This document shows, piece by piece, positions 1 to 52,236 of a stretch of 64,000 bases of DNA. The position numbers and the translations under genes were made by a program. The notes beneath the pieces are model-generated. The model was not told the origin of the DNA. It worked only from the letters and a program-made list of their open reading frames with translations, and made no database searches. The number at the start of each line of letters is the position of its first letter. Positions within the stretch are counted from its first letter, which is position 1. The DNA is from Acidimicrobiales bacterium (GTDB lineage: Bacteria; Actinomycetota; Acidimicrobiia; Acidimicrobiales; Bog-793): positions 1 through 64,000 of the forward strand of contig DATLTN010000025.1 of assembly GCA_035533595.1 (NCBI GenBank), in the 5' to 3' direction.

Positions 1-270
1 GCAGCGCAGCCCGCACTCTTCGTTTCTCCCGTAGAAGAGGGGCGCGAGGCGGTGCGCGCAGTAGGCGGCGACGAGGCCGACCTCGCCGGAGGAGTCTCTG
101 AAGGCGACGAGGTCCTCGCCGAGGATGCGCACGCGGATCGGCGGGCTGTCCGGCTCGGCGATCTCCTCGGAGAGGCAGGCCGGGATCCAGTAGCGACGGA
201 AGACCTCTCCCATCGGGGTCCCCGGTCCGACGCGGACGAGCCGCTCGTTCATCTCAGGTGTGATGTGCAC
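1..270 (-). CDS. Rieske [2Fe-2S] ring-hydroxylating oxygenase alpha subunit, N-terminal part
   Basis: Only the first 90 codons lie in the window; the gene runs off the left edge. The translation has the Rieske ligand pair C71-A-H73, and the last visible residue, C90, is the first Cys of the second pair. These proteins are terminal oxygenases that take electrons from a reductase and hydroxylate or demethylate aromatic or related substrates. The N-terminus (residues 15-21 GPGTPMG, then YWIPACL) closely resembles the second Rieske protein at 12331-13575, so the two are paralogues. I chose the GTG at 270 because GGGAG lies about 6 nt upstream; an ATG at 252 is in frame. The substrate cannot be read from this fragment. 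Confidence 0.85.
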   Translation of the reverse strand, partial: MHITPEMNERLVRVGPGTPMGEVFRRYWIPACLSEEIAEPDSPPIRVRILGEDLVAFRDSSGEVGLVAAYCAHRLAPLFYGRNEECGLRC

Positions 271-9983: not shown

Positions 9984-10594
9984 ACGACGCGCGGCGGCGC
10001 CTCGTCCTCGCCTCGGCCTCCCCCGCCCGCCTCCGGCTGCTGCGCGCCGCGGGGCTGGACCCGGAAGTGATCGTGAGCGCAGCCGACGAGCAGTGGGAGG
10101 GGCGGCGCCCGACCGCTGCGGTCGTGCAGCTCCTCGCCCGACGCAAGGCGGAGGCCGTCGCCGTGGCGGCCGGGGACGCGCTCGTCATCGCCGCAGACTC
10201 CCTCCTCGACCTCGGCGGCGAGGCGCTCGGCAAGCCCGGCAGCGCCGAGGTCGCCCGCGAGCGCTGGATCCGCCTCAGCGGCGCGCGGGGAACGCTCTGC
10301 ACCGGCCAGTACCTCCTCGACGCGGCGACCGGCCGCGCCGCCGTCCACCTCAGTGAGACGGCGGTGCACTTCGCCTCGCCGAGCGACGAGGAGATCGCCG
10401 CCTACGTGGGGAGCGGCGAGCCGATCGAGGTCGCCGGCGCCTTCACCATCGACGGCCTCGGCTCCGCCTTCGTCACCCGCGTCGAGGGGGACGCGAGCGC
10501 CGTCGTCGGCCTCTCGATCGCCGGCCTGCGCCTGCAGCTCGCCGAGCTCGGCGTCGGCCTCACCGAGCTCTGGCGGGGCGCCCGCCGGGGCTGA
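9980..10594 (+). CDS. maf: Maf-family nucleotide pyrophosphatase (CTG start)
   Basis: Maf proteins hydrolyse non-canonical or pyrimidine nucleoside triphosphates to monophosphates. The N-terminal signature RRLVLASASPARLRLLRAAG is intact, followed by VIAADSLLDLGGEALGKPG (the catalytic Asp region), GARGTLCTGQYLL and AGAFTIDGLGSAFV. About 204 residues is normal. The signature lies upstream of the first GTG (10067), so that GTG cannot be the true start. The only initiator-like codon before the signature is CTG at 9980, which overlaps the stop of the preceding gene and has AAGG 7 nt upstream. The gene converges with the ThDP enzyme at 10613. Confidence 0.9.
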   Translation: MNDARRRLVLASASPARLRLLRAAGLDPEVIVSAADEQWEGRRPTAAVVQLLARRKAEAVAVAAGDALVIAADSLLDLGGEALGKPGSAEVARERWIRLSGARGTLCTGQYLLDAATGRAAVHLSETAVHFASPSDEEIAAYVGSGEPIEVAGAFTIDGLGSAFVTRVEGDASAVVGLSIAGLRLQLAELGVGLTELWRGARRG

Positions 10595-10612: not shown

Positions 10613-12319
10613 TCAGTTCTGCTGCACCGCCACGACGACGAGCGCCGCCCTGCCCCCCTCGACCGCCGCCAGCCCTCGCCGCAGCGCACCGTCGAGCTCG
10701 CGGTGGTGCTCGACCCGCTCGCCGTGCGCGTGGCAGGCGGCGGCCAGCGCGACGAAATCGGGGGTCCCCTCGAAGCGGGTCCCGACCGCGTCGGCCGCGA
10801 GCGCCGAGGCGCCCTCGGGGAAGAGCTCGTAGACCGGGAGGCGGCTCGCCCGGTAGCCGCCGTTGTCGAGCACGACGGCGAGGAAGGGGGCGCCGAGGGC
10901 GGCGGCCATCATCCACGCCGAGGTGGGCACGCCGAACAGCAGGCTCCCGTCGCCGCAGACGGCGACGACCCGCCGATCCGGGCGGGCGAGCTTCACGCCG
11001 ACGGCACCACCGAGCGCCCAGCCGAGGCCGGGAGCGAAGGGGCCGGCGACTGTCCCCGGCTCGCTGCGCACGAGGTGCTCGTAGAGCAGGCCAGAGTTCG
11101 TCACCGCCTCCTCGATCACCACGTCCTCGGGGCGCAGGACGGCGTTCATCGCCGCGAAGACGTCGCGCGGGACGAGGTGCTCGGGGTCGGCGGGGGCCGC
11201 CTCCGGCGGCGGGTCGGGGACCGCCGCGGCGGCGCGCGCCGCCCACCTCTCGGCGAGGTCGGGATCGTCGGCGGCGCGGCGCGCCAGCGCCTCGACGAGC
11301 TGGGTGACGGCCGTCGGGCCGTCGGCGCGCACCGAGTGGTCGACCGGGAAGGCCCACAGCGGCATGGTCTCGTGCAGCGGCTCGGGGTCGACGTACACGA
11401 CGGTCGCGGCCGCGGCGGGCTGCACGAAGCGGGGGATCCAGGGGACGTCGCACTCGACGACGAGCACGACGTCGGCGGTACGCAGGGCGGCCGCCTTGGC
11501 TGCAGGTGAGCGGCGGTGCAGCGGGTGCAGGGTGGCGATCGACAGCGGCCCGGTGTCGGCGCCGCGCACCACCTCCATGCCGAGCAGCTCGACGAGGCGG
11601 GTCGCCGCCGCGAAGCCCTCGGCGCTGCGTCCGAGGCGGGAGGTGACGAGGAGCGGGCGCTCGGCCCCGGCGAGCAGCCCGCTCAAATGAGCGAGCGTCG
11701 CGGCGTCGACTGCCGCGGGGCTCGGCACGGCGTAGCCGGCGCTGCGCGGCGCGGGCGCCGGGGCGTCCATCAACACGTCGCGCGAGACCGTCACGTACAC
11801 CGGCCCCGCCGGGTAGCTCGTCGCGAGCTGCACCGCACGGCCGATGGCGCGGCCGAGCATCTCCGGGCGGGTGATCTCGAGACAGGCCTTGGTGTAGGGG
11901 CGGACGATCGAAGCCTGGTCGGGCACGTCCTGCAGCCACTGGATGTAACCGCTCCGCCCGCCGGGGGCCGTGGCGTCCTCCCCGTAGGGGGTGCGGCCGG
12001 CGAGGATCACCACGCCGGCGCGGTCACGGAAGGCGTCGTGCATCATCGCCCCGAGGTTCTGGGTGCCGGCGTCGACGTGGACGAAGAGGCACTGCGGCCG
12101 TCCGGTCGCCTGGTAGTAGGCGTGCGCCGCGGCGAGCGAGACTGCCTCGAAGGTCGAGGGGTGGACGGCGGGGATCGCCACTCCCCGCTCGGGGAGGGTG
12201 CGCATCGCCTCCTGCAGCGGTGCCGAGTCGGTGCCCGGGTTGAGGAAGAAGTGCTCGACGCCGTGCTCGGCGAGGAGCGCGAGCAGCTGCTCGGCGACCG
12301 TGGCGTAGGCGGCGCCCAA
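10613..12319 (-). CDS. Thiamine-diphosphate enzyme of the acetolactate synthase/benzoylformate decarboxylase family
   Basis: 568 residues in the usual PYR, central and PP order. The ThDP-binding motif begins GDGSLLFGVPTSAWMM and ends VVLDNGGY. The PYR-domain catalytic Glu is in STFEAVSLAAAHAYYQATG. Family members decarboxylate or ligate 2-oxo acids. The start is TTG with GGGAGG 5 nt upstream. It is the last gene of a three-gene minus-strand operon (MetE-like, Rieske, this gene), 11 bp after the Rieske stop. A 2-oxo-acid decarboxylase downstream of an oxygenase would fit degradation of an aromatic or hydroxylated acid. The substrate is not evident. Confidence 0.88.
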   Translation of the reverse strand: MGAAYATVAEQLLALLAEHGVEHFFLNPGTDSAPLQEAMRTLPERGVAIPAVHPSTFEAVSLAAAHAYYQATGRPQCLFVHVDAGTQNLGAMMHDAFRDRAGVVILAGRTPYGEDATAPGGRSGYIQWLQDVPDQASIVRPYTKACLEITRPEMLGRAIGRAVQLATSYPAGPVYVTVSRDVLMDAPAPAPRSAGYAVPSPAAVDAATLAHLSGLLAGAERPLLVTSRLGRSAEGFAAATRLVELLGMEVVRGADTGPLSIATLHPLHRRSPAAKAAALRTADVVLVVECDVPWIPRFVQPAAAATVVYVDPEPLHETMPLWAFPVDHSVRADGPTAVTQLVEALARRAADDPDLAERWAARAAAAVPDPPPEAAPADPEHLVPRDVFAAMNAVLRPEDVVIEEAVTNSGLLYEHLVRSEPGTVAGPFAPGLGWALGGAVGVKLARPDRRVVAVCGDGSLLFGVPTSAWMMAAALGAPFLAVVLDNGGYRASRLPVYELFPEGASALAADAVGTRFEGTPDFVALAAACHAHGERVEHHRELDGALRRGLAAVEGGRAALVVVAVQQN

Positions 12320-12330
12320 GGGGGCCTCCC

Positions 12331-13575
12331 TCAGCGGCCGATGAGGTCGGCGGTGGCCGCGAGCCAGTCGGCGCCCTCGGGGAGGATGACGCCCCCCGAG
12401 CGCACCCGGTAGACCTCGGGTTCGTCGACCCCGGGCGGAGCGACGCCCTCCTCGGCGAGCGCGCGCGCCGCCACGGCGAGGCGCTTCCTTAGGAGGATGA
12501 CCATCACGTCCGAGCTCGCGAGGTGCTCGCGCTCGCGGTGCAGGAGCGGCCCCATCGACTCGGTGATCGCCTTGTCCTGCATGTGGATGCCGGGGATCCC
12601 CGTGTAGGAGTCGCGGCGCTGGGCGGCGCGGTCCATGCGGTAGTCGTTCCCGAAGACGGCGAGCGGCCGGAAACGGTCGAACCAGCCGCTGCCGTTCGGC
12701 TGCAGCTCGGCGTCGGAGACGACCGGCACGGTGCCCCCCTTCTCCCCCATCGAGAAGAACAGCACGTGCTCGTCGTCCATCGGCACCCAGGCGCGGGTGA
12801 GCACCTGCTCACCGAGGACGCCGGTCGGGATGTGCGAGAAGACGGGGAAGAGGAACTGCGCGATCCGCCAGTAGGTCTCCCCGCTCCCGGCCGGGCGGTA
12901 GGCCCCGTACATCGCCCCGTAGGGGGTGTCGAGCGCCGCATAGCGGGGGGCGCGGTCGCGGACCGTGTAGTAGTTGAAGGAGCCCTCCTCGAAGTCCTCC
13001 GGCTGCTGGGCGCCCATGTGCAAAAAGCCGAGGTGGCTCGTGTCGAGCTCGCCCTCGATCGCCTGCAGCCAGTTGCACTCGCGCGAGACGGCGTAGACCT
13101 GGCGCTCCGCCTCGCCGAGCTCTGCAGCCTCGAGGGCGGGCGGCGCGGGCGGGACCTCGCGTGGGCCGAGATAGGCCCAGATCACGCCGCCCCGCTCGGT
13201 GACGGGGTAGGCGCGCGCCGCAACGTGCTGCTTGAAGCGCGAGTTCGGCGGCTCGTTCGGCATGTCGACGCAGCGACCGCGGGCGTCGAACTTCCAGCCG
13301 TGGTAGACGCAGCGGAGGCCGTCGTGCTCGTTGCGGCCGAAGTAGAGGCTCGCGCCCCGGTGCGGGCAGCCGTGGTCGAGAAGGCCGACCTCGCCCGCCG
13401 AGTCCCGGAAGGCGACGAGCGCCTCGCCCAAGAGCATCACCCGCACGGGGTCACAGTCCGGCGCGGGCAGCTCGCTCGACAGGAGTGCGGGCAGCCAGTA
13501 CTGGCGCATGAGCTCGCCCATCGGCGTGCCCGGCCCCGTCTCGGTGAGGAAGCGGTTCTCCTCGACGTCAAGCAC
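12331..13575 (-). CDS. Rieske non-heme iron oxygenase, phthalate 4,5-dioxygenase-like
   Basis: 414 residues. Rieske ligands are C70-P-H72 and C89-x2-H92. The mononuclear iron motif is DTSHLGFLH with H181 and H186, so both metal sites look complete. This is an oxygenase alpha subunit of the class that hydroxylates or demethylates aromatic acids; it needs a ferredoxin or reductase, none of which is adjacent. The start is GTG at 13575. It lies in an operon between a MetE-like protein (72 bp upstream) and a ThDP enzyme (11 bp downstream). The N-terminus resembles the partial Rieske protein at 1-270. Confidence 0.93.
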   Translation of the reverse strand: MLDVEENRFLTETGPGTPMGELMRQYWLPALLSSELPAPDCDPVRVMLLGEALVAFRDSAGEVGLLDHGCPHRGASLYFGRNEHDGLRCVYHGWKFDARGRCVDMPNEPPNSRFKQHVAARAYPVTERGGVIWAYLGPREVPPAPPALEAAELGEAERQVYAVSRECNWLQAIEGELDTSHLGFLHMGAQQPEDFEEGSFNYYTVRDRAPRYAALDTPYGAMYGAYRPAGSGETYWRIAQFLFPVFSHIPTGVLGEQVLTRAWVPMDDEHVLFFSMGEKGGTVPVVSDAELQPNGSGWFDRFRPLAVFGNDYRMDRAAQRRDSYTGIPGIHMQDKAITESMGPLLHREREHLASSDVMVILLRKRLAVAARALAEEGVAPPGVDEPEVYRVRSGGVILPEGADWLAATADLIGR

Positions 13576-13647
13576 CGGGATCCATCCTTTCCTCGCGCGC
13601 GCGGCCGGCGGCCACCTCGCTCGTTGCTGCGCCGGAGGTCGCGGCGC

Positions 13648-14808
13648 TCACCACAGCGCCTCGCTCGCCAGCCGGGCCCCGGCGGCGAGCGCCTCGAGCT
13701 TGGCCCAGGTGATCTCGGGGTGGCCGACGCGCGCCGCGAGGCCGCAGTCGGTGCCGGCGATGACGTTCTCCCGCCCGAGCAGGCCGGCGAAGCGCAGCAG
13801 CCGCTGGCAAACGAGCTCGGGGTGCTCGATGAGGTCGCTCGCGTGGCCGACAGCGCCCGGCATGAGGATCCGCCCCTCGGGGAGCTTCACCTCCTCCCAG
13901 AGCCGCCACTCGTGCTCGTGCGTCGGGTTCGCCGCCTCGACCGAGAGGCACTGCGCAGGGACGCGCAGCACGATGTCGATAATGTCGCGCAGCGCGATGT
14001 CGTCCCGGTGGGGGCCATGCTGGCTCCCCCAGCAGACGTGCAGCCGGACCTTCTCCTCGGGGATGCCGCGCAGCGCGTGCAGGAGGGCCTCGACGCGCAG
14101 CGTCGCGTAGTCCCGGTACTCGGCAACGGTCATCTCCGGGTACATCTGCCAGCCGTCGGGGAGGTCGGGGTCGTCGAGCTGCAGGATGAGGCCGGCATCG
14201 GTGATCGCCAGGTACTCCTCGCGCATCGCCTCGGCGATCGCGAAGAGCAGCGCCTCGTCGTCGGGGTAGTGCTCGTTGAAGAGCCAGTGCTCGACCGTCC
14301 CCGGGGTGATCGCGGGGAGGTAGGCCTCGACGTCGAGGCCGGCCGTCGCCTGCTGCAGGCGGGCGATGTCGGCCTGCACCGCCTCGGCGCCGATGTAGGC
14401 GAGGGGGGCGGTGCAGAAGTAAGGATCGTTGTTGGTGCTCGCCCGGTTGGCGTTCACCCCCCGCCCGACGCCGCCGAGGCCCGCCGCGTAGAAACCGGGG
14501 AAGTCGCGCTGGTCCCGCAGGTTGGGGCTGCGCGTCCGCAGCCCGTCGGGGAGCGGCCGCTGCTCGATGCCGGAGAGGCGCTCGCGGACGTAGCCGGAGA
14601 AGCCGCCGCGCTTCGCGACCTCGCCGTCGTTCACGACGTCGATCCCGATGTCGGCCTGGTGGCGCACGACCTCGGCGACCGCGCTCTCGAGGCGGGCGTC
14701 GAAGGCGGCGCGCGATCCCTCACCGGCGAGGAGCAGCTGCTGCAGGTCGTCGGGGCGAGGCAGCACACCGGCGTGTGAGACGCGGATCCGCCCTTCGCTG
14801 CGCTGCAT
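13648..14808 (-). CDS. MetE C-terminal-like (cobalamin-independent methionine synthase family) protein
   Basis: 386 residues, matching the catalytic C-terminal domain of MetE only. The zinc-ligand motifs are visible: LHVCWGSQHG (His and Cys) and GTDCGL (the third ligand Cys), plus an acidic residue in between. True MetE is about 750 residues with an N-terminal domain. Stand-alone versions transfer methyl groups between unknown donors and thiols, or act in demethylation and epoxide/thiol chemistry. As first gene of an operon with a Rieske oxygenase and a ThDP enzyme, a catabolic methyl-transfer or thiol-adduct role is more likely than methionine synthesis. That role is inferred from context. 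Confidence 0.88.
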   Translation of the reverse strand: MQRSEGRIRVSHAGVLPRPDDLQQLLLAGEGSRAAFDARLESAVAEVVRHQADIGIDVVNDGEVAKRGGFSGYVRERLSGIEQRPLPDGLRTRSPNLRDQRDFPGFYAAGLGGVGRGVNANRASTNNDPYFCTAPLAYIGAEAVQADIARLQQATAGLDVEAYLPAITPGTVEHWLFNEHYPDDEALLFAIAEAMREEYLAITDAGLILQLDDPDLPDGWQMYPEMTVAEYRDYATLRVEALLHALRGIPEEKVRLHVCWGSQHGPHRDDIALRDIIDIVLRVPAQCLSVEAANPTHEHEWRLWEEVKLPEGRILMPGAVGHASDLIEHPELVCQRLLRFAGLLGRENVIAGTDCGLAARVGHPEITWAKLEALAAGARLASEALW

Positions 14809-14854: not shown

Positions 14855-14904
14855 CGCGCCACAGTGGCAGGGTAAGGAGCGCGCCACAGTGGCAGGGTAA
14901 GGAG
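14855..14904. repeat. Perfect tandem duplication of a 25-bp unit
   Basis: Units 14855-14879 and 14880-14904 are identical (CGCGCCACAGTGGCAGGGTA, then AGGAG). Each contains CCAC-A-GTGG and an AGGAG. The second copy lies just upstream of the ATG at 14917, so the duplication supplies a second ribosome-binding-like sequence and a second possible operator half-site in the divergent promoter region. Confidence 0.8.
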
Positions 14905-14916
14905 AAGGAGGCGACG

Positions 14917-15336
14917 ATGGCGGAGCAGAACGAGCGCAACCGGTTGCTCGCCGAGGAGTACCGGCGCAACGGCGGGTGGGTGGCGGAGGAGAAGTTCAAG
15001 GACGCTCCCCTGCTGCTGCTCACGACCGAGGGGCGCCGCAGCGGGCGCCGCTACGTCAACCCCCTCATGTACCTCCCCGACGGGGAGCGCTACGTGATCT
15101 TCGCCTCCCACCAGGGGGCGCCCGAGGACCCCGACTGGTACAAGAACCTCGTCGCCGCCGGTGAGGCGACGATCGAGGTCGGTCGCGAGGAGATCCCCGT
15201 CGCCGTCGTCGTCACCTCCGGGGAGGAGCGCGACGAGCTCTACCGCCGCCACGCCGGTCTCCATCCGCGCTTCGCGGCCTACGAGGACAACACCTCGCGC
15301 CTCATCCCCGTCGTCGCCCTCGCCCCGCGGCGCTGA
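14917..15336 (+). CDS. Deazaflavin (F420)-dependent nitroreductase-family protein
   Basis: 139 residues of the DDN-type split beta-barrel family. It has LLLLTTEGRRSGRRYVNPLMY, a match to the family's phosphate-binding TxGRKSGxxR region, and GAPEDPDWYKNLVAAGEATI, the most conserved stretch. Members use reduced F420 to reduce quinones, nitro compounds or other acceptors. A GGAG-rich ribosome binding site precedes the ATG, partly created by the tandem repeat. It is divergent from the MetE-like operon. A second family member is at 42702-43148. Confidence 0.9.
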   Translation: MAEQNERNRLLAEEYRRNGGWVAEEKFKDAPLLLLTTEGRRSGRRYVNPLMYLPDGERYVIFASHQGAPEDPDWYKNLVAAGEATIEVGREEIPVAVVVTSGEERDELYRRHAGLHPRFAAYEDNTSRLIPVVALAPRR

Positions 15337-34765: not shown

Positions 34766-35956
34766 GTGACGACCGAGCTCTTCCAGGAGCCGACGAGCGA
34801 GGAGCAGCGGGCCGGGCTACAGGAGGGCAAGGCCCAGTCGACGCGGTGGGAGAAGTTCATCGCCGCCGAGGGCGTCCCCAATTACTCGGCGATCGGCTTC
34901 CACGACGTGCGCGAGCTCGACCTCGGCCCCTGGCCGCGCCTCGGCGGCAACGGCGCCTACCTCTCGCTGTCGGGGCTCGACGGGATGAAGTCGATGTTCG
35001 TCCTCGAGATCCCGGGCGGCGGCGTCCTCAACCCCGAGCGCCACGTCTACCACGCCTTCTACCTCGTCCTCGAGGGGCGGGGCACGACCGAGACCTGGAT
35101 CCGCGAGGACCACAAGCAGGTCGTCGAATGGCAGCCGGGATCGCTCTTCTACCTGCCCCCGAACGTCATGCACCGCCTGGTGAACGCGACCAACGAGAGG
35201 GTGCTGATCATCGCCTCGACGAACGCGCCGCCGATCATGAACATGTTCCAGAACGACGACTTCATCTTCAACAACGACTTCATCTTCCCCGAGCACTACC
35301 GAGAGGACGCCGACTTCTACAAGTACGACGAGCAGATCTACGCGATCCCGACCACCAAGCGCGCGCAGGCGCGCACGAACTTCTACCCCGACATCATCAA
35401 CTCCGAGCTGCCCCTCGACAACCAGCGCACCCCCGGCTACCGGCGCGTGCAACCGGCCTGGCAGGGCTTCCAGGACGAGGCGATCGGCACGTTCATCGCG
35501 CAGTACCCACCCGGGCGCTACGCGCGGGCCCACTACCACAACGCCCAGGCGGTGCTCGTCTGCCTGCGGGGCGCGGGCTACACCTTCAACTGGCCGAAGG
35601 ACTGCGGCCAGACCCCGTGGAAAGACGGTCACGGGGACAAGGTGAACCGCCTTGACTACATCCCTGGCGGCCTCGTCTCGGCAGCGCCGGGCGGCGGTGA
35701 CTGGTTCCACCAGCACTTCGCTGTCTCGGCCGACCCCTTCCGGGTCTTCAACATGTGGGGCGGCCCGCTGCCGAAGAACTACCGCGGCTACGACAGCGAA
35801 ACGGGCGTCGCCGGGAACAGCAACATCTCGCTCGGCGGCCACAGCATCGGCTTCGCCACCGAGGATCCCTACGTGCGCGAGACCTTCGAGGAGGGACTCG
35901 CGAAGGTCGGCCTCTCCTCCTCGATGCCCGAGGAGCTGTACACCAAGGACGTCTGA
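34766..35956 (+). CDS. Bicupin protein, gentisate-dioxygenase-like layout
   Basis: 396 residues with two cupin folds. Cupin 1 centres on H93 and H96 (ERHVYHAFYLVLEG) but lacks the usual Glu ligand. Cupin 2 keeps H256-x-H258 (ARAHYHNAQAVLVC) with Gln/Ala where Glu is normal, and H315/H317 (DWFHQHF) would supply the third His. A three-His metal site without Glu matches gentisate and related ring-cleaving dioxygenases, which often have an FAH-family partner, as here. Which ring is cleaved is not visible. GTG start with GAGGGGGT upstream. Quercetin-type or non-enzymatic cupins are alternatives. Confidence 0.75.
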   Translation: MTTELFQEPTSEEQRAGLQEGKAQSTRWEKFIAAEGVPNYSAIGFHDVRELDLGPWPRLGGNGAYLSLSGLDGMKSMFVLEIPGGGVLNPERHVYHAFYLVLEGRGTTETWIREDHKQVVEWQPGSLFYLPPNVMHRLVNATNERVLIIASTNAPPIMNMFQNDDFIFNNDFIFPEHYREDADFYKYDEQIYAIPTTKRAQARTNFYPDIINSELPLDNQRTPGYRRVQPAWQGFQDEAIGTFIAQYPPGRYARAHYHNAQAVLVCLRGAGYTFNWPKDCGQTPWKDGHGDKVNRLDYIPGGLVSAAPGGGDWFHQHFAVSADPFRVFNMWGGPLPKNYRGYDSETGVAGNSNISLGGHSIGFATEDPYVRETFEEGLAKVGLSSSMPEELYTKDV

Positions 35957-50522: not shown

Positions 50523-50643
50523 CGGGAGCTCCCCGTCCAGCTCAACGGACTCTCCGTGCACGGATCGTTGGCGCGAGCCAAGATTGGCCACCGAGCGGCG
50601 CCGACCTAGCAGGGTCGCGCCCGGACCTCCGAGGAGACAGGCA

Positions 50644-52236
50644 ATGGCACAGCGCTACCAGGTGATCATCGTCGGCGGGGGGCCCGTGGGAATGGCGCTC
50701 GCCGTCGAGCTCGGCCAGCGCGGGCTCTCCGTCGCCGTCGTCGAGCGCGGTCGCGAGGTCGGTCGGTTGCCGAAGGGGCAAGGGCTCACCCACCGCTCGC
50801 TCGAGCACTTCTACTTCTGGAACTGCCTCGAGGAGATCCGCACCATCCGGCTCCTGCCGCCGGGCTACCCGATCGGCGGGATCAACGCCTACCCCAACCT
50901 CGTGAGCGACTGGTGGTACCCGAGCGGCGAGGCCCGCAACAAGCTCGGCCCCTACTACTTCCAGCGCAACGATCGCCTCCCCCAGTACCTCACCGAGGAG
51001 GTGCTGCGCGGCCGCGTCGAGCAGCTCGACAACGTCACCGTCCTGTTCGAGCGCACGGCCAAGGGCATCTCCCAGGACGCCGAGGGCGTGCAGGTGCAGA
51101 TGACCTCCTCGGTCTGGCCCTACGAGGACGAGACCCTCGAGGGCGAGTACCTCGTCGGCTGCGACGGGACGGGCTCGATCGTGCTGCGCGAGCTCGGCAT
51201 CGAGCGCCGCGGCGTCGACTTCGAGACCCGCATGGCGCTCGCGGTGATCCATTCCCCCGAGTTCCACGAGGGGACCAAGCGCTTCGGTGAACGGACGACC
51301 TTCCACGTGATCAACCCGGAGATGCACGGCGCCTGGCAGTTCTGGGGGCGGGTGGAGGCCGAGAACACCTTCTTCTTCCACGGCCCAGTGAAGGCCGACG
51401 CCACCTCCGACGACAAGGACTACGTCCTCAAGGTGATGCAGGAGGCCGCCGGCTTCGAGTTCGACGCGGAGTTCCAGCACCTCGGCTTTTGGAACCTGCG
51501 GATCTCCGTCGCCGACAGGTACCGCGACCGACGGGTCTTCATCGCCGGCGACGCCGCGCACGCCCACCCCCCCTACGGCGGCCAAGGGCTGAACAACGGC
51601 CTCGAGGACGTCACCAACCTCGGCTGGAAGCTCGCCGCGGTCCTCGACGGCTGGGGCGCGGACGGCCTCCTCGACTCCTACGACGCCGAGCGCCAGGCGG
51701 TCTTCACCGAGATCGGCCGGGACATGATCGCCCAGGGGATCATCGACGAGGACGAGTGGCTGAAGCTGCACAACGCCGAGCGCGACCTCGCCGACTTCGA
51801 GGCGGCCTGGAAGGAGCGCAGCTCGGAGTCTGCGGCCCCCCAGGACTTCGTGCAGAACTACGACGGCTCCCCCGTCGTCGAGGGCACCCCCGGCGCGACG
51901 CCCGGCATCCACGCCTCGCACTCGCTGCTCGCGCGAGCGGGCTTCCACCTCGCGCCGCAGCCCCTCAGCTCGGGCGAGAACGTCTTTGAGGCGCTCGGGA
52001 CCGGCTTCACCCTCCTCGCCTTCGGCGTCGAGGAGGCGGCCACCAAGGGGATCGAGGAAGCGGCAGCGGCCCACAAGGTGCCGCTCACCGTCGTGCGCGA
52101 CTCCTATGACGGCGGGCGCGAGGAGTACGGCAGGCACCTCGTCCTCGTGCGCCCCGACCAGTTCGTCTCCTGGGTCGGCGACGAGCCGCCCGCCGACGCC
52201 GAGGCCCTCGTGCGCAAGGTCGCCGTCGGCGGCTGA
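50644..52236 (+). CDS. FAD-dependent aromatic hydroxylase (class A monooxygenase)
   Basis: 530 residues. FAD motifs: VIIVGGGPVGMALAVELG at the N-terminus, GCDGTGSIVLREL (DG motif, about 173-185) and FIAGDAAHAHPPYGGQGLNN (GD motif, about 300-320). The C-terminal thioredoxin-like domain of the phenol/PheA-type subfamily is present. It inserts one oxygen atom into an aromatic ring using NAD(P)H. GAGGAG stands 7 nt before the ATG. It is monocistronic and could feed the ring-cleavage genes at 33-37 kb, though this is only a suggestion. Confidence 0.92.
   Translation: MAQRYQVIIVGGGPVGMALAVELGQRGLSVAVVERGREVGRLPKGQGLTHRSLEHFYFWNCLEEIRTIRLLPPGYPIGGINAYPNLVSDWWYPSGEARNKLGPYYFQRNDRLPQYLTEEVLRGRVEQLDNVTVLFERTAKGISQDAEGVQVQMTSSVWPYEDETLEGEYLVGCDGTGSIVLRELGIERRGVDFETRMALAVIHSPEFHEGTKRFGERTTFHVINPEMHGAWQFWGRVEAENTFFFHGPVKADATSDDKDYVLKVMQEAAGFEFDAEFQHLGFWNLRISVADRYRDRRVFIAGDAAHAHPPYGGQGLNNGLEDVTNLGWKLAAVLDGWGADGLLDSYDAERQAVFTEIGRDMIAQGIIDEDEWLKLHNAERDLADFEAAWKERSSESAAPQDFVQNYDGSPVVEGTPGATPGIHASHSLLARAGFHLAPQPLSSGENVFEALGTGFTLLAFGVEEAATKGIEEAAAAHKVPLTVVRDSYDGGREEYGRHLVLVRPDQFVSWVGDEPPADAEALVRKVAVGG

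Follow-up and report, generated by a model that had tools for sequence, protein, structure and literature searches.

We analysed three closely set genes on the minus strand of a 64,000-nucleotide stretch of DNA from an Acidimicrobiales bacterium (the window; contig DATLTN010000025.1 of assembly GCA_035533595.1). In the direction of reading, they encode a single-domain, MetE-like zinc methyltransferase (core type, Meth_synt_2; 386 amino acids (aa); 13648..14808, with an ATG at 14808), a Rieske non-haem-iron oxygenase of the phthalate 4,5-dioxygenase / LigXa class (414 aa; 12331..13575, GTG start) and a thiamine diphosphate (ThDP)-dependent enzyme of the PRK08327 family that resembles benzoylformate decarboxylase (568 aa; 10613..12319, TTG start). 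The open reading frames lie exactly where a first-pass annotation had put them, separated by the 72 bp (Rieske/MetE-like) and 11 bp (ThDP/Rieske) that it reported, and gaps of this size suggest a single transcript. The limits of the set also hold, being marked on both sides by plus-strand genes: a Maf-like gene closes the set on the ThDP side (10067-10594) and a divergent gene of the F420H2-dependent quinone reductase family lies outside the operon on the other (14917..15336; PF04075, 5e-29). Pfam agreed with the family calls made earlier (Meth_synt_2; Rieske plus LigXa_C; TPP enzyme N and C domains), and all catalytic motifs that we examined are intact in the three proteins. The arrangement is real, its parts are ordinary and none of the relatives examined preserves it, so it looks like a local mix of known parts rather than a new conserved pathway.

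Catalytic features of the three enzymes

The MetE-like protein matches PF01717 (Meth_synt_2) with an E value of 1e-12, and its AlphaFold model is a confident single domain (pLDDT 92.4). The nearest solved fold is 3RPD, a B12-independent methionine synthase (Foldseek, 2e-17), which VIA aligns to the model with a Z score of 35.6 and a root-mean-square deviation of 2.4 over 321 residues at 22% identity. MetE/Mes folds head the Foldseek and VIA rankings, followed by uroporphyrinogen decarboxylases and one methyltransferase; this comparison of a predicted model leaves the substrate undecided. We then read the active site from an alignment of 103 rows, numbered against E. coli MetE, with residue roles taken from PMC7857596. 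The predicted zinc ligands H257, C259, E291 and C355 correspond to E. coli H641, C643, E665 and C726 and are invariant in every row, the window protein included. Two homocysteine contacts, E63 and D212 (equivalent to E484 and D599), are likewise conserved in 103/103 rows; at the S433 position the window protein has Val15, where 86 of the 103 rows have Ser. After the zinc Glu comes an N-x2-H-x-H-E stretch in which, across 36 rows, N294, H297 and E300 never vary and H299 hardly does.

The core (folate-independent) methionine synthases MesA-MesD (Price et al. 2021, PMC7857596) share with the window protein a single Meth_synt_2 domain, the His-Cys-Glu-Cys zinc set, the E484 and D599 equivalents and 3RPD as the closest solved fold, which that paper names as MesD. 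The window protein differs in its Val at the S433 equivalent and in the family-specific N-x2-H-x-H-E stretch, which 3RPD and 1YPX lack in a profile alignment. It also differs in scoring far below curated cut-offs: 56.7 bits against 392 for PRK09121, and 28.2 bits against 929.95 for canonical MetE (TIGR01371), which has two domains where the window protein has one of 386 aa. An identity as MesD itself was rejected; PMC7857596 defines MesD by about 55% identity and a DUF1852 (MesX) neighbour, whereas identity to 3RPD is 22% and DUF1852 went unmatched in the adjacent genes scanned, a genome-wide search for it not having been made. For core-MetE homologues of aerobic marine bacteria, function is termed questionable in PMC12478193.

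The oxygenase contains a Rieske domain (PF00355, 6e-18) and a LigXa_C domain (PF19301, 3.5e-29), with C-x-H-x17-C-x2-H at residue 70 and D-x2-H-x4-H at 178, that is, the [2Fe-2S] Rieske motif and the 2-His-1-carboxylate iron site that characterize ring-hydroxylating and O-demethylating oxygenases. Its best relatives in the Protein Data Bank (PDB) are 7FHR (E 5.7e-90; deposited as a putative phthalate 4,5-dioxygenase), 9INA (1.6e-85) and 7FJL (2.9e-70), phthalate 4,5-dioxygenase / LigXa-type oxygenases that share both domains and both metal motifs. The observed likeness to LigXa itself, a 5,5'-dehydrodivanillate O-demethylase with a methoxylated biaryl substrate, is the LigXa_C match. The annotators had also remarked that no ferredoxin or reductase gene stands beside the operon, which we confirmed; two plasmid-borne Rieske relatives (44-45% identical), in contrast, adjoin a PDR/VanB reductase. 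The organism's own 2.8-Mb genome (G000) contains 20 matches to the Rieske domain, of which some are partial. It has just one full PDR-type reductase, adjoining another Rieske oxygenase on contig C6, together with one partial match to the C-terminal ferredoxin part of such a reductase. Given 20 Rieske matches and a single full reductase, supply of the window oxygenase by a shared PDR-type reductase would be an economical explanation for the missing local partner. Homologues of the window oxygenase (E 1e-40) are also numerous in four related genomes, G303, G310, G321 and G327, which encode 6 to 9 each.

The ThDP protein has the N and C domains of TPP enzymes (PF02776 and PF02775, 7e-20 and 3e-20) and scores 521.6 bits against a cut-off of 456 for NCBIfam PRK08327 (NF006203), a model that carries no assigned reaction. 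The cofactor motif GDG...N is found at 456, and FEAVS at 57 marks the region of the Glu that is catalytic in ThDP enzymes. Its best PDB matches are benzoylformate decarboxylases, to which it is only remotely similar (E ~1e-28); the window protein, PRK08327 proteins and benzoylformate decarboxylases are alike in the ThDP domains, cofactor motif, catalytic Glu region and the His of an H-x2-AGT motif. We take the active site of benzoylformate decarboxylase to comprise Ser26, His70 and His281. The motif His of the window protein aligns with a benzoylformate decarboxylase His, the Ser position is Thr both here and in the solved chain 4JUD, perhaps a variant, and no His aligns in the His281 region.

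Conservation and origin of the gene set

From a scan with one genome per species we obtained the best 80 of 548 MetE-like relatives, and at none of these 80 loci was the triple present within the available contigs, many of which are short, so that a partner past a contig end could go unseen. Partners were labelled with phmmer at E 1e-4 or better. In the phylum of the organism, neither a Rieske nor a ThDP relative was found at 12 MetE-like loci, and both partners were likewise lacking at nine Rieske loci, at three ThDP loci and at a fourth ThDP locus (L070). This reading of context covered a minority of the Rieske matches listed and did not extend to ThDP locus L166. On the evidence of the 80 loci, a conserved three-gene pathway was rejected. 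The neighbourhood comparison that the first-pass annotation had proposed thus revealed no conserved unit, and in close relatives the genes stand largely in unrelated contexts, the outcome it had named as speaking against its operon. Among 60 relatives, the organism's own genome included, MetE-like matches (E 0.001) occur in 13 genomes, Rieske matches (E 1e-40) in eight and ThDP matches (E 1e-30) in five. A literature search found no paper on the combination of MetE-like, Rieske and ThDP genes.

Pairs fared slightly better than the triple. A Rieske gene lies within 1.5 kb of the MetE-like gene at five of the 80 loci (L130, L079, L074, L073 and L115; six genes) and farther off at two more, and a ThDP gene lies within this distance at two loci and farther off at another two. 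Rieske genes are mildly over-represented near MetE-like genes: six of eight fall in the near zone, which contains 394 of 1,157 genes (nominal binomial P = 0.022; by locus 5/7, P = 0.05), with P values that assume independent genes and a 1.5-kb bin set in the same script that generated the list. On the tree, the label 'Rieske within 1.5 kb' changes six times against a shuffled mean of 5.9, which indicates that the Rieske/MetE-like pair is not an inherited unit.

In a maximum-likelihood tree of the same 103 MetE-like rows, the window protein pairs with a protein of Chloroflexota locus L071 (63% identity, support 99/93). The clade around this pair has 12 rows from mixed phyla, Rokubacteria and Alphaproteobacteria among them; a separate clade contains a MetE paralogue from the organism's own genome and the copies found in its family. 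Because the tree separates the window protein from its family's copies, the placement suggests that the MetE-like gene was acquired laterally.

The surroundings of these relatives were examined through 49 same-strand partners, drawn from 62 entries, two of which appear twice, at most 150 bp from a MetE-like gene; of the entries excluded, most overlap the MetE-like reading frame and are probably spurious. UbiD, VanA_C, 3-hydroxyanthranilate dioxygenase (3-HAO), TPP enzyme and F420H2_quin_red each occur once among the 49. The partner in the closest relative, L071, is the UbiD decarboxylase, and a VanA-type Rieske gene lies 70 bp from the MetE-like gene of L130. Of seven plasmid-borne MetE-like loci, one has a hydroxycinnamoyl-CoA hydratase/lyase nearby, one continues with a hydrolase and then an RraA-family gene, and two have other neighbours. 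Another two, in Croceicoccus marinus and Novosphingobium pentaromativorans US6-1, place a member of the wider MetE-like family with an aminomethyltransferase-family gene, metF and purU, as in the folate O-demethylation clusters of sphingomonads (aminomethyltransferase-family gene, metF, purU, folD). We take the aminomethyltransferase-family gene of these clusters to be the O-demethylase, from work on LigM/DesA. The likeness has its limits: folate genes are absent from the window operon, and the Croceicoccus MetE-like protein belongs to a different clade of the tree. At three loci, MetE-like genes stand head to tail in twos or threes (L076 209-3825, L109 4888-7645, L121 4984-7308).

The ThDP gene has variable company as well. 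Its nearest relative (60%, L167) follows putative transporter permeases of the branched-chain amino acid type, then come an alcohol dehydrogenase and a cupin; the next (53%, L168) has a context unlike that of L167. Six of 13 plasmid loci with a PRK08327-type gene have an aldehyde or semialdehyde dehydrogenase nearby and one has an MmgE/PrpD gene directly upstream, a family also present in the window, 0.9 kb downstream; the displayed annotation of the 13 loci included no Rieske gene.

Proposed function and competing explanations

Considering the tight spacing on one strand, the opposite-strand flanks, the intact motifs, the absence of the triple from the relatives examined, the tree placement of the MetE-like gene, the dehydrogenases near PRK08327-type genes, the 20 Rieske matches with one full reductase and the catabolic neighbours of MetE-like relatives, solute-binding proteins included, we propose, with a probability of about 0.4, that the three genes form a lineage-specific catabolic operon put together from mobile enzyme genes. 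Its substrate would be an organic acid, probably an aromatic or methoxylated one. The Rieske oxygenase would hydroxylate or O-demethylate the acid and would receive its electrons from the genome's one full PDR-type reductase, encoded outside the operon, and the ThDP enzyme would decarboxylate a 2-oxo acid arising along the route to an aldehyde. The zinc of the MetE-like protein would activate a thiol, homocysteine or another small one, to receive a methyl group, a transfer that could dispose of or assimilate methyl derived from the substrate. Substrate and reaction order are what we infer; the route sketched in the first-pass annotation, oxidation or demethylation followed by decarboxylation, is chemically reasonable.

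Several observations weigh against this proposal. The sole sign of co-transcription is the spacing, and a scan for sigma-70-type promoters returned zero sites, although its consensus may be ill-suited to this organism. Within the operon there is no aldehyde dehydrogenase, ring-cleavage gene or transporter. The partners of MetE-like relatives are highly mixed, with no Pfam family in more than three of the 49 and solute-binding proteins the commonest, and the remaining plasmid locus has its MetE-like gene directly behind a canonical metE, alongside a methylcitrate cluster.

A first rival is chance, namely that three unrelated catabolic genes came to lie on the same strand of a Rieske-rich genome and share no pathway. 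In a 2.8-Mb genome with 20 Rieske matches and four MetE paralogues of the single-domain type, accidental proximity is not improbable, and both the failure of any pair to persist in the phylum loci examined, or of the triple in the wider 80, and the unclustered pairing label are what chance would predict. We nevertheless regard it as rather unlikely, in view of the 11- and 72-bp gaps, which point to one transcript, and the mild excess of Rieske genes near MetE-like genes.

Lower still do we place the possibility that the MetE-like gene is a biosynthetic, folate-independent core methionine synthase whose promoter the two downstream catabolic genes merely use. The conserved zinc ligands, two of three homocysteine-contact residues and the fold match to 3RPD fit such a role, as does a 45%-identical relative in Rhodococcus sp. 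PD04 that lies 30 bp behind canonical metE; low scores against the curated models, the replacement of the homocysteine-binding Ser by Val and the catabolic neighbours of several relatives argue against it. Whether the cell would need it bears on the same question. The genome holds four single-domain MetE paralogues of differing subfamilies, the window gene included (contigs C25, C5, C60 and C51), and a MetH match above cut-off, and owing to this match and the three further paralogues the window protein is probably not the sole methionine synthase. The only match to the MetH activation domain (G000:C61:73863-74600) has one in-frame TGA, however, either a sequencing error or a sign of a broken gene, which tempers that conclusion and favours the synthase reading. 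In PMC12366255, Phaeobacter inhibens without a gene that its authors term 'Mes-like' still showed dimethylsulfoniopropionate (DMSP)-dependent shortening of the lag phase, another point against a biosynthetic role if that gene belongs to this family.

A one-carbon (C1) salvage operon, in which a ThDP carboligase captures formaldehyde from Rieske O-demethylation and the MetE-like enzyme also handles the C1 unit, is very improbable: Rieske O-demethylases do release formaldehyde, ThDP enzymes of this superfamily can carboligate and two MetE-like relatives sit within tetrahydrofolate C1 clusters, but PRK08327 relatives adjoin aldehyde dehydrogenases and transporters, not C1 genes, and no carboligase operon of this type was seen among the loci examined.

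Under the catabolic reading, the operon adds another local assortment of degradative enzymes to an uncultured, high-GC lineage with many Rieske oxygenases. The single-domain MetE-like family extends through many bacterial phyla with its full zinc site and a stretch absent from two solved single-domain relatives; these features and several catabolic neighbourhoods imply that many members may wrongly carry the automatic label 'methionine synthase', and the family merits biochemical study. A bolder idea, to which we give little credence, is that its members are unrecognized zinc-dependent, corrinoid-free catabolic demethylases that move methyl groups from (aromatic) substrates or C1 carriers to a thiol, with N-x2-H-x-H-E as the donor site, and that were recurrently recruited beside Rieske O-demethylases, UbiD decarboxylases and folate O-demethylation genes. 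In that case the window operon would exemplify this recruitment, with a ThDP decarboxylase finishing the route.

Promoter region and surrounding genes

Between the MetE-like gene and its divergent neighbour, a 108-bp divergent promoter region contains a perfect tandem 25-bp repeat (14855..14904, no strand) with a GCCACAGTGGC palindrome in each copy, a candidate operator. The 15-base repeat core has no perfect copy elsewhere in the genome. Allowing up to one mismatch, it matches the genome five times, only the two window copies being perfect, against seven matches for a reversed control; an operator common to the genome's Rieske genes was therefore rejected. A second Rieske gene of the genome (L174 7673-9525) likewise has a divergent neighbour of the F420H2-dependent quinone reductase family.

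The Pfam profile of the Maf-like protein (10067-10594) is matched only from position 25, the ATG/GTG/TTG frame lacking its N-terminus. A Rieske domain on the minus strand is truncated by the contig start (window 1-189), and two further genes are possible additions to the catabolic repertoire, one for a cupin protein of 396 aa (34766-35956) and one for a protein of the FAD-dependent aromatic-ring hydroxylase family (50584-52236).

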